The notes beneath the pieces were generated by a model. That model did not search any database. It was not told the origin of the DNA and was given only the letters and a program-made list of their open reading frames with translations. Positions 34,474 through 37,404 of a stretch of 37,404 nt of DNA are shown here, one piece after another. Source of the stretch: Candidatus Hydrogenedentota bacterium (GTDB taxonomy: Bacteria > Hydrogenedentota > Hydrogenedentia > Hydrogenedentales > SLHB01). The DNA lies in NCBI GenBank assembly GCA_019695095.1, contig JAIBAQ010000043.1, forward strand, positions 1 to 37,404, in the 5' to 3' direction. A program made the position numbers and the translations under genes. Positions within the stretch are counted from its first letter, which is position 1. Every line of letters begins with the position of its first letter.

Positions 34474-35862
34474 TCACCCTAATCCATACTCACGCATCTT
34501 ACGCCACAACGTCGACCGCGAAATCCCCAAGCGCTTGGCCGCTTCCGTCTGATTTCCATTCAACCGTTCCAGCGTCGATCGGATCATCTGCGACTCCATG
34601 TCCGTCAATGTCGCTATCTCATCCCGCGCGTAATTCGGCAACGCCAGCCGCGGCCGGCTTCCCCGCACCACGCTGTCCGGCAGATCGCTCGCGCGGATGA
34701 CCTGTCCATCGCTCATGATGACCGCATGCGCGACAATGCTCTCCAGCTCGCGCACGTTGCCAGGAAAATCGTAGTTGCGTAGCAGTACCTGGGCCTGCTC
34801 GTCGAACCCCGTCACACTCCGTCCGTACTGCCGGTTAAACTGCGCGATGAAATGACTGGCCAGTTTTGGGAGCGCGTCCAGCCGATCGCGCAACGGCGGT
34901 ATCCGGATCTGAATCACGTTTAACCGGAAATACAGGTCCTCGCGAAACTCCTTCGCCGACACCGCCTGCTCCAGGTCGCGGTTCGTGGCGGCAATCACGC
35001 GCACGTCCACCCGCATGGATTTCGAACTGCCGACGGGGCGGATTTCGCCGTTTTGCAGCACGCGCAACAGCTTCGCCTGCGTCACCAGGGCCATGTCGCC
35101 AATCTCGTCCAGGAAGATGGTCCCGCCGTCGGCCTCCTCGAACAAGCCCCGCTTGTCCGACTCCGCGCCCGTGAACGCCCCCTTCACATGTCCAAACATC
35201 TCGCTCTCGAGAAGCTGGTCCGGCAGCGCCGCGCAGTTGATGGCGATGAACGGCATGTCCCGGCGCGGGCTCAGCCGGTGCACCGCGTTCGCCAGGACTT
35301 CCTTGCCCGTGCCGCTCTCGCCGAGGAGCAAAACCGTGCTGTCCGTGGGTGCGACCTTCGAGATGACCTCAATCACCCGCTTCATCGCCGCCGACTCGCC
35401 AACCATTTCCTCGAACATGTTCTGTTCGAGCCGGTCCGCTGCCGTCTCGTGGGCTAACCCCCGTAGTACCTTGTTTACGACGAGGCCCACGTCCGTCGGG
35501 TCGCACGTGTTGGGCAAATAGAAGGCCGCCCCCTTGCGCACCCCGTCCAGCGCCACGTCAATATGGGCGATATCGAATAGCAGAACGATGCGTGTGCGTG
35601 GACTTCCCCGGCGGACATACGACACCAAATCGACGCCCGCATCCGCAGAGAGGTCCATATCTAAAACCATTGCTTCGAAGGACTTGCGGCTGGTCAACCG
35701 CAGCACCCCCTTCGCATCATGGCACTGCTCTACCGCATACCCTACGCCCTGAAGATACCGGGCAAGGGTTGCCGCCCTCGGCACGTCCGCCATCGCCAGC
35801 AACACCGGCGTTCGGGGAGGAGGCTCTATGTTTCCAATCGAAGCGCGCTGTCTTGTGGTCAT
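34474..35862 (-). CDS. sigma-54-dependent transcriptional activator with degenerate receiver
   Basis: A 462-residue NtrC-family protein. The receiver-like domain (about 18-130) keeps the phospho-acceptor Asp68 (VLDMDLS) but lacks the acidic pair near residue 24, the Thr/Ser (here Phe96) and the Lys (here Asn118). The AAA+ domain (about 155-390) is intact: GESGTGKE (Lys187), GAFTGA (228-233), GGTIFLDEIGDM. The C-terminus is a Fis-type helix-turn-helix, NQTEAAKRLGISRSTLWRKM. It should activate sigma-54 promoters by contact with RpoN, probably without normal phosphorylation. The target is unknown; the beta-helix gene lies directly downstream. No clear ribosome site precedes the ATG. Confidence 0.92.
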   Translation of the reverse strand: MTTRQRASIGNIEPPPRTPVLLAMADVPRAATLARYLQGVGYAVEQCHDAKGVLRLTSRKSFEAMVLDMDLSADAGVDLVSYVRRGSPRTRIVLLFDIAHIDVALDGVRKGAAFYLPNTCDPTDVGLVVNKVLRGLAHETAADRLEQNMFEEMVGESAAMKRVIEVISKVAPTDSTVLLLGESGTGKEVLANAVHRLSPRRDMPFIAINCAALPDQLLESEMFGHVKGAFTGAESDKRGLFEEADGGTIFLDEIGDMALVTQAKLLRVLQNGEIRPVGSSKSMRVDVRVIAATNRDLEQAVSAKEFREDLYFRLNVIQIRIPPLRDRLDALPKLASHFIAQFNRQYGRSVTGFDEQAQVLLRNYDFPGNVRELESIVAHAVIMSDGQVIRASDLPDSVVRGSRPRLALPNYARDEIATLTDMESQMIRSTLERLNGNQTEAAKRLGISRSTLWRKMREYGLG

Positions 35863-35910: not shown

Positions 35911-36363
35911 TCAATCCCAGATGTAGCGCTCGTCGAATTCAATCCTGTGTCTGCGTAGGAGAGCGCGGAATTCCTCCTGAAAATCCATTTTGCGGTGGTG
36001 TGCCATTTGGGAATTGATATAGCGCTGGACGGCGGGTCCGTTCGATTCGCTCACGCTGAATGCCCCATAACCGCGTTGCCAAAAGAAATCGCGAAAGCTC
36101 TCACCCTGCAACTTCATCCATTTGGAGGACTGTCGTTTAAGTTCTTCTATTAAATCAGCCACGGAAACAGCGCGTCCCAGGACACACAGGGCGTGTACAT
36201 GATCCAGGGTTCCGCCGATGCGAATCGCATGGCAATTGATCCCCGAGAGGATACCGAACATATAGCCGTACAACTTGGGCTGAACTTCGGGCGTGATGAC
36301 GGGAAGACGGTTCTTTGTGCTAAACACGACATGGACCATGACGTTAGAAAGGGACTGCGGCAT
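35911..36363 (-). CDS. REP-associated tyrosine transposase (RAYT, IS200-like fold)
   Basis: A 150-residue single-stranded-DNA transposase of the Y1 (TnpA_REP) type. Metal-binding HUH residues are His55 and His57 (DHVHALC); the nucleophile is Tyr115 in AVQRYINSQMAHH, with Gln119 one helical turn on, as in IS200/IS605 enzymes. WQRGYGAFSVSES and the ending FRALLRRHRIEFDERYIWD are typical of the family. It looks intact. The ATG at 36363 was preferred to a TTG six bases upstream because it gives the usual MPQSLSNV start and follows GGGGG. Hairpin repeats start 17 bases upstream of the gene. Confidence 0.92.
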   Translation of the reverse strand: MPQSLSNVMVHVVFSTKNRLPVITPEVQPKLYGYMFGILSGINCHAIRIGGTLDHVHALCVLGRAVSVADLIEELKRQSSKWMKLQGESFRDFFWQRGYGAFSVSESNGPAVQRYINSQMAHHRKMDFQEEFRALLRRHRIEFDERYIWD

Positions 36364-36380
36364 CGGCAAACCCCCGTGTT

Positions 36381-36509
36381 CCGCCCCTTCAGGGCGGTCT
36401 ATTCGCGTGATTCGTTACCTAGGGCGTCGTTTGAAGCCGCACGCCTCGCTTCGCGGGCGTACGTCTTCAAACTTTGCCCTAGGCTACTATGTCGGACCCC
36501 CTTGGGGTC
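36381..36509 (+). repeat. REP module A next to the RAYT gene
   Basis: Hairpin 1 CCGCCC...GGGCGG (36381-36396); hairpin 2 from 36414 to 36486 with outer arms CCTAGGGC/GCCCTAGG and GTTTGAA/TTCAAAC and an inner stem ACGCC/GGCGT; then CTACTATGTC and hairpin 3 GACCCC...GGGGTC (36495-36509). The module recurs inverted at 37278-37404. Confidence 0.75.
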
Positions 36510-36973
36510 AAATCCGGGCAACGGTCTTATTCGCGTTGGATTCGACAGATTGAGTATAGCGTTCGCACGCGTAAGAGATTTGCCTAGAGCGCTTTAGCCT
36601 TTCATACCTACGACATTCTCGTGAGCGCATTTTCACCAAGCGTTGGAAGGTTTCTGATTCGTAGCTGTAAGAAGTGAAAATGCGGTAGCTGTGCGCCTGC
36701 CAGAACATGAACCAACTGTACGGAGATTTTTGATTTAGAGCGCGGCACAGGGGCAGCAATTGGGGCAAGGTCAGATATCCGTTAGAACTTAGAGCAGCGT
36801 AGCCGAAACCAAATTGACTCAACCACCGATGAACACCGATAAACGCCGATAAGAGAAAGGATTCAGCCCGAATGACTTCAAACCACGGGGGATTTCGTGA
36901 AGCCTACCCAGACTTTTTCGGATAGTAGTACGAAAGGAAGACAGGACTTGTGCTTGCAGAATGCCGCAACGCC
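36510..36973. other. gene-free, AT-richer stretch with a short tandem repeat
   Basis: No convincing gene; a minus-strand frame of 104 codons (36508-36822) has no ribosome site or family match. At 36822-36851 lie three copies of a 10-base unit (CACCGATGAA, CACCGATAAA, CGCCGATAAG), a kind of short repeat common in intergenic DNA of many bacteria. Confidence 0.45.
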
Positions 36974-37297
36974 GCGCCGGAGGCGCTAGACATGATTCAT
37001 ACCGTGAGGAAGTGGCAATTGCCGAAAAGGATGAGGGGAAACGAGACGTACGCTCTCAAGGTGTGGAATCTTCCACGCTAATGTGCCGCACACGGACGAC
37101 TAGTCCTTTGGGACCGGAACAGACCGGAAGACGACACACGAAGACGTCACTTGTGCATCACACTCTATAGATTCTGCGCCGGAGGCGCTGGACATAACTC
37201 ACGATAGCTGTCGAAATTGAGTTTGCGAAAACGGCGTGCAGTAACGAAGTGCATACAAGCTCAGCGTCGCGAATTCCGCGCCGGAGGCGCTGGACAT
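36974..37297. repeat. three copies of the REP hairpin-3 box
   Basis: GCGCCGGAGGCGCTGGACAT occurs at 37176-37195 and 37278-37297 exactly, and at 36974-36993 with one change. Starts are 202 and 102 bases apart. The box is hairpin 3 plus the ATGTC linker of the REP module read on the other strand, so the first two copies are probably truncated modules. Nothing else is recognisable between them. Confidence 0.65.
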
Positions 37298-37404
37298 GCT
37301 AGCCTAGGGCAGAGTTTGGGATTGTTCGTTGCGGGCGAGCAACGAACAATTTCAAACGCCGCCCTAGGTAACCGTTACCCAGAAAGAGATGCGCCCTGAA
37401 GGGG
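37278..37404 (-). repeat. REP module B, inverted copy, cut by the window end
   Basis: Read on the minus strand it has hairpin 1 CCCCTTCAGGGCG, the motif GTTACCTAGGGCG, the long hairpin with a perfect 12-base inner stem ATTGTTCGTTGC/GCAACGAACAAT, GCCCTAGGCTA, ATGTC, and hairpin 3 AGCGCC-TCC-GGCGC. The outer arms match module A but the inner stem is wholly different while still paired. Confidence 0.75.

Follow-up and report, generated by a model that had tools for sequence, protein, structure and literature searches.

A low-copy Y1 transposase gene of subclass 1.2 and its three-hairpin repeats as a probable REPtron-like unit with a variable hairpin tip

Analysis of a window of 37,404 nucleotides, the whole stretch of Candidatus Hydrogenedentota contig JAIBAQ010000043.1 considered here, pointed to a REPtron-like unit. 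We propose, with a probability of about 0.8, that a low-copy Y1 gene of subclass 1.2 (tnpA) and an outward-facing pair of three-hairpin elements make up this unit, and that the apex of the large hairpin is free to vary. An initial annotation had described structured repeats beside a Y1 transposase gene, and the data reported below supported repeats that are dispersed, structured, covarying and tied to this gene. The following features were identified in the window.

35911 to 36369, minus strand: tnpA-like Y1 HUH gene, 152 aa, with the subclass 1.2 signature (Pfam, NCBIfam, motifs).
36362 to 36519, plus strand: element A, three hairpins on the 5' side of tnpA, 5'-end type (covariance model R1, 142.9 bits).
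36381 to 36397, plus strand: HP1 of A (CCGCCCCTTCAGGGCGG), gene-proximal (fold; covariation in relatives).
36418 to 36483, plus strand: HP2 of A, basal stem CCTAGGGC/GCCCTAGG and variable apex of the A type (fold, pattern, alignment, covariation).
36495 to 36509, plus strand: HP3 of A (GACCCCCTTGGGGTC), with ATGTC before it (fold, alignment).
36969 to 36993, minus strand: solo HP3-ATGTC module (GCGCCGGAGGCGCTAGACAT; repeat family D1).
37171 to 37195, minus strand: solo HP3-ATGTC module (GCGCCGGAGGCGCTGGACAT; repeat family D1).
37267 to 37404, minus strand: element B, 3'-end type, HP1 truncated by the contig end (R1, 107-120 bits; C179 overlap).
37278 to 37290, minus strand: HP3 of B (GCGCCTCCGGCGC read on B's own strand; repeat comparison, fold).
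37303 to 37368, minus strand: HP2 of B with a perfect 12-bp inner stem (repeat comparison, fold, pattern).

Modules A (36381-36509, plus strand) and B (37278-37404, minus strand) were both recovered as first annotated. They share the boxes GTTACCTAGGGCG, GTTTG/CAAAC, GCCCTAGGCTA, ATGTC and CCCCTTCAGGGC; B has the perfect 12-bp inner stem described earlier (ATTGTTCGTTGC/GCAACGAACAAT), and the inner stem of A is unlike it and broken by mismatches, also as described. Folded as single-stranded DNA, A reached z-scores of -7.2/-8.3 and B of -6.0/-5.5 against dinucleotide shuffles. The true extent of element A (~36362-36519) is larger than the module initially drawn, and its strand is opposite to that of tnpA. 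Element B is truncated where the assembly branches: window positions 37278-37404, at the contig end, are identical to positions 1-127 of another contig (C179), an overlap of 127 bases. The repeat itself most likely caused this branch. Only the 5' element (A) adjoins tnpA in the window, and the 3'-end-type copy B lies ~900 bp away. HP1 of A (36381-36397) is found just upstream of the tnpA start at 36363, with GAAGGGG on the tnpA strand, and could mask a ribosome-binding site at this start.

The complete element is ~130-160 nt long and is made of a small HP1, a large HP2 and a small HP3; A and B are both copies. Alignment of ten copies gave a consensus HP1 of GCGCTTTCAGCGC or GCCCCTTCAGGGC, then ~22 nt leading to HP2 (basal stem CCTAGGGC/GCCCTAGG, long apex), followed by CTAnnATGT and HP3 (GCGCCTTCGGCGC). 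In aligned copies, HP1 was preceded by TGT(T), HP3 by ATGT and HP2 mostly by GTTA or GGTA. The REP foot GT[AG]G (or CGTC) at one short hairpin was absent from these copies.

More copies than expected by chance were found in the window's own genome, as the initial annotation required. The pattern CCTAGGGC-N32-62-GCCCTAGGCT had 11 matches versus 0 for the reversed control, and a search with a shorter gap of 10-40 had none. A covariance model returned 110 matches in the genome at E up to 1, corresponding to ~97 distinct places when counted by hand from the table, with opposite-strand palindrome matches and contig overlap removed. One family, with CCTAGGGC/CCTGGGGC bases, accounted for ~26 copies and another, with CCTGGGGT, for ~60; a few other families made up the rest. 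The elements are intergenic and dispersed: across 18 loci, 7% of element bases fell inside ORFs of at least 200 aa, compared with 70% of flanking bases. No target duplication was found at the boundaries of the commonest family, which were mosaic, and a search of Rfam with the element matched no family. Among the matches listed, a literature search using HP1 words returned only medical, human and mouse studies with no relation to these repeats. Repeats of a similar kind may also be common in Planctomycetes and Verrucomicrobia.

The protein encoded next to element A matched Pfam Y1_Tnp (E=1.7e-22) and an NCBIfam IS200/IS605 model (59 bits), and its closest solved structures were ISDra2-type TnpA. 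Translation most likely begins at ATG 36363, since tnpA homologues begin there. In 25 aligned sequences, residues D56, H57, H59, W97, Q98, Y117, Q121, H124 and H125 were invariant, and the window protein showed the motifs DHVH, WQ and Y---Q--HH in this alignment of 25 homologues. DH[VI]H, WQ and Y---Q--HH define the signature of TnpA_Y1 subclass 1.2 (Quentin et al. 2018, PMC6006769). The window gene carries this signature and was assigned to the subclass by its motifs; the ~148 aa length, the low copy number and the low identity between copies are further traits in common. The genome contains two tnpA genes; the second, on contig C22, shares 47% identity with the first and carries a single internal TGA. 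Each of the two adjoins its own element family. The neighbour of tnpA in the window is an ordinary NtrC-type sigma-54 response regulator (34474-35862, minus strand).

The gene had initially been annotated as a RAYT (class 2), an assignment that we revise: the protein has Y117-I-N-S-Q121 and no Y---NP. A conventional RAYT with conventional REPs would account for the REPtron-like layout, the intergenic copies and the gene-less inverted pairs, but it is very improbable given Y---Q--HH in place of Y---NP, the absent GT[AG]G foot and three hairpins per unit rather than one. We consider it just as improbable that the locus is an ordinary IS200/IS605 insertion sequence with two subterminal hairpins. 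The NCBIfam name of the gene and the closest solved structure, an IS200/IS605-type TnpA, both suit this explanation; however, the flanking elements are inverted instead of lying on the same strand, the two tnpA genes are 47% identical with no near-identical copies, and elements outnumber the gene by ~50 to 1. An IS200/IS605 element would be expected in several near-identical copies whose hairpin ends are not inverted, which was not what we found.

Genes and elements were associated across genomes. In a set of 25 genomes made up of the own genome and relatives, tnpA was present in 14, each of which was also one of the 19 with elements. An adjacent element was detected at 29 of 31 tnpA genes. 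Of the 26 elements on the 5' side, 25 lay on the strand opposite to the gene and one on the same strand, whereas all 21 on the 3' side shared the strand of the gene. The unit in relatives was laid out as [HP3-HP2-HP1](-) tnpA(+) [HP1-HP2-HP3](+), inverted and outward-facing. In a hold-out set of 19 further tnpA loci, fetched after the orientation rule had been seen, an element was present at 19/19, on the opposite strand on the 5' side (18/18) and on the same strand on the 3' side (18/18). Inverted repeats flanking a gene, with more copies dispersed between genes, make up the layout of a REPtron, and this layout was observed here. Table 1 of PMC6006769 enters "no" under REP for subclass 1.2, a trait that fails here given the adjacent elements at 29/31 and 19/19 genes; we read this entry as a property missed by the survey and not as a defining feature. 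A literature search turned up no more recent study of this subclass.

Over 68 genomes of the window's phylum, 43 had both gene and elements, 14 had neither, 9 had elements only and 2 had tnpA only (Fisher p=5.7e-7, a value that overstates independence because these genomes are related). The 9 and 2 discordant genomes may be partly due to incomplete assemblies. One genome without a detected element (G088) encodes a full tnpA at C19:20144-20596. A single-protein scan of genome contigs matched only Emticicia, which gave a lead into a second phylum, Bacteroidota, where the tnpA gene was found in 27 of 38 genomes. Fifteen elements occur in the Emticicia genome, several of them as divergent pairs, and a plasmid of Persicobacter sp. 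JZB09 (CP012861.1) carries a full canonical unit with a gene-less dimer nearby. At other Bacteroidota loci, where the model is less sensitive, the 3' element was mixed in orientation (3 on the same versus 5 on the opposite strand).

The relationship between A and B could be read from another contig (C92), which carries one element of each type in divergent orientation. The sequence between them includes ATGGCGCAGTCCCTTTC, matching the start of the window tnpA, and GTGGGATTG, matching its last codons (W-D-stop), indicating that C92 represents a unit that lost the middle of its gene. From this arrangement, A is the 5'-end type and B the 3'-end type of one mobile unit. The initial annotation had explained the difference between A and B as one stem rewritten with its pairing kept; two end types of one unit is the simpler account. 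Gene-less close pairs, counted among the matches listed, were divergent in 17 cases and convergent in 3, and resemble REPINs. Vestiges of tnpA ends were rare in dispersed copies (6/207 by a loose word, ~2 of them convincing), which suggests that most of these copies are not simple gene deletions. As neither an empty/filled site pair nor a target duplication was found, we infer the movement of single elements from copy number and C92.

Covariation was strong in HP1, HP2 and HP3 alike. In the own genome, 21 of 38 pairs changed on both sides, the covariation score was 0.404 versus 0.120 in shuffled and at most 0.109 in slid controls, and 90.5% of cells were paired versus 74.7% in shuffles. The search pattern for this set demanded the HP2 outer stem, which partly explains why that stem was invariant; the inner stem was outside the pattern. 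Two-sided changes were seen at 30 of 38 pairs in relatives' elements retrieved by the model (score 0.228 versus 0.077), and at 16 of 19 pairs in matches from further genomes, taken at tnpA loci (0.375 versus 0.135). Alignments fitted to a covariance model lean towards that model, and the slid controls nonetheless collapsed (at most 0.074 versus 0.375 at the tnpA loci of further genomes). Variants of the HP2 base included CCCAGGG, CCCGGGG, CCTGGGG, CCAGGGG, CCGTGGG, CCGGGGG, CCCCAGG and more, each with its own complement.

Selection on a transcript could also produce covariation, if the elements acted as RNA (terminators, mRNA-stabilising or regulatory hairpins). Their intergenic position, strong folding and small G+C-rich hairpins are in keeping with such a role, as is the position of HP1 just upstream of the tnpA start. 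Against this, G-T (G-U) cells were rare (31 of ~2,660 in the own genome, 2 of ~800 in relatives) and changes were nearly always two-sided (164 cells versus a handful of one-sided ones in relatives). One-sided changes to wobble pairs being very rare, DNA hairpins fit better than RNA. As an indicator of which strand folds, the asymmetry between A-C and G-T cells was inconsistent, at 16 versus 2 in one set and 12 versus 7 and 22 versus 21 in others. The fixed geometry of the elements to tnpA genes on both flanks and the lack of a matching Rfam family further speak against an RNA function, which we regard as unlikely.

The inner stem of HP2 differed wholly between copies, as initially noted for A and B, and fell into 27 unrelated apex clusters. 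The initial annotation had also taken this stem to be the conserved feature, a view that the data did not support. Eighteen of the 27 apex types folded better than dinucleotide shuffles (about P<=0.05); the other nine, which include the apex most often found in CCTAGGGC/CCTGGGGC copies of the own genome, folded no better, and 44 of 104 elements from relatives (42%) had an apex of at most 6 nt. Selection on the inner stem as such was therefore not demonstrated, and the parts paired everywhere are HP1, the HP2 base and HP3.

Several copies recorded how the tip changes. A 21-nt hairpin-like insert between CTTCG repeats was gained or lost at the HP2 tip in otherwise alike copies (present or absent in L029 versus L040, L036 and L120), and the short form without it occurred in different backgrounds, which suggests repeated deletion. 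In three pairs, HP2 loops were exact reverse complements within identical arms (shuffle P=0.003, in a post hoc test chosen after the data were seen); these flip/flop-like pairs were L042/L044, L035/L101 and L103/L079. At locus L049 (G014 C653), two copies with shared surroundings had wholly different, perfectly paired 8-bp tips, GTGCGTCC/GGACGCAC versus GTCCCGCG/CGCGGGAC.

Mutational processes (template switching, palindrome conversion, indels of nested hairpins), and not selection for a folded strand, might have produced the inner-stem pairing, a possibility to which we give somewhat less than an even chance. The reverse-complemented loops, the nested CTTCG-flanked insert, the rarity of one-sided changes and the frequent absence or lack of pairing of the inner stem argue for it, but it leaves unexplained both the covariation of HP1, the HP2 base and HP3 across many genomes and the tie to tnpA. 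For the apex alone, such a mutational origin is compatible with the REPtron-like unit.

In the REPtron-like unit that we propose, TnpA likely acts on a folded single strand. The enzyme would recognise one DNA strand of the element when it is exposed, for example as lagging-strand template, through HP1, the HP2 base with flanking bases and HP3. It would cleave beside a hairpin, and copy or move single elements and gene-less dimers. The HP2 tip would be a tolerated spacer that diversifies by gain or loss of nested hairpins, loop inversion and replacement, often being left paired although pairing would not be required. This model draws on an analogy with TnpA enzymes of the superfamily, which cut one strand of folded ssDNA and read the foot, unpaired bases and the lower part of the stem; in the E. 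coli REP, the stem's upper half acts as non-specific structure (PMC8266576). By the same analogy, the window TnpA most likely recognises HP1, the HP2 base and HP3 of one strand.

Similarly to the subclass 1.2 genes surveyed in PMC6006769, the gene described here encodes ~150 aa with DH[VI]H, WQ, Y---Q--HH and a conserved C-terminal tail, is low in copy number and is present in Bacteroidota. Unlike in that survey, which lists no REP, covarying three-hairpin flanks accompany subclass 1.2 genes throughout one phylum and in at least a part of the Bacteroidota. RAYT/TnpA_REP systems with REP, BIME and REPIN (class 2) also combine a low-copy HUH-Y1 gene with inverted repeat flanks, many intergenic copies, gene-less inverted dimers and one repeat family per gene, and the HP2 tip has a parallel in the E. 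coli REP, whose stem is non-specific structure in its upper half (PMC8266576). They differ from the present unit, in which the enzyme belongs to class 1, the hairpins number three, the GTAG/CGTC foot is lacking and the HP2 apex ranges from ~5 to >50 nt. IS200/IS605 elements (TnpA subclass 1.1) share the class 1 HUH-Y1 core and hairpin substrates expected to be single-stranded; here, by contrast, the flanks are inverted, genes are few and elements many, and no tnpB was seen next to the window tnpA. Class 3 TnpA_Y1 (Planctomycetes, Acidobacteria) likewise has atypical high-copy hairpins near its gene, but carries NHVH/Y----Q where DHVH/Y---Q--HH is found here, and its reported foot (CnGA) is different.

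We consider it fairly probable that subclass 1.2 Y1 enzymes are a second, class-1 lineage of repeat-mobilising enzymes, present in several phyla, with an inverted element of three hairpins and a tip that changes freely through gain, loss and inversion of nested hairpins. The unit described here extends REPtron-like organisation beyond the RAYT lineage and gives a widespread HUH group, listed in the survey without IS or REP features, a candidate substrate and a testable unit. The many natural apex variants could be used to compare which hairpin features are read by a Y1 enzyme and to follow the evolution of DNA hairpins. At L122 (C225:1-1600), L213, L219 and L220, elements alternated or were repeated in tandem, in some cases around tnpA, and resembled BIMEs; at L139:1131-1305 and L056:1131-1305 (G017 contig C18) the HP2-ATGTCC unit (GAGGGCGTTGCCCTGGGCTATCATGTCC) was repeated several times in tandem.
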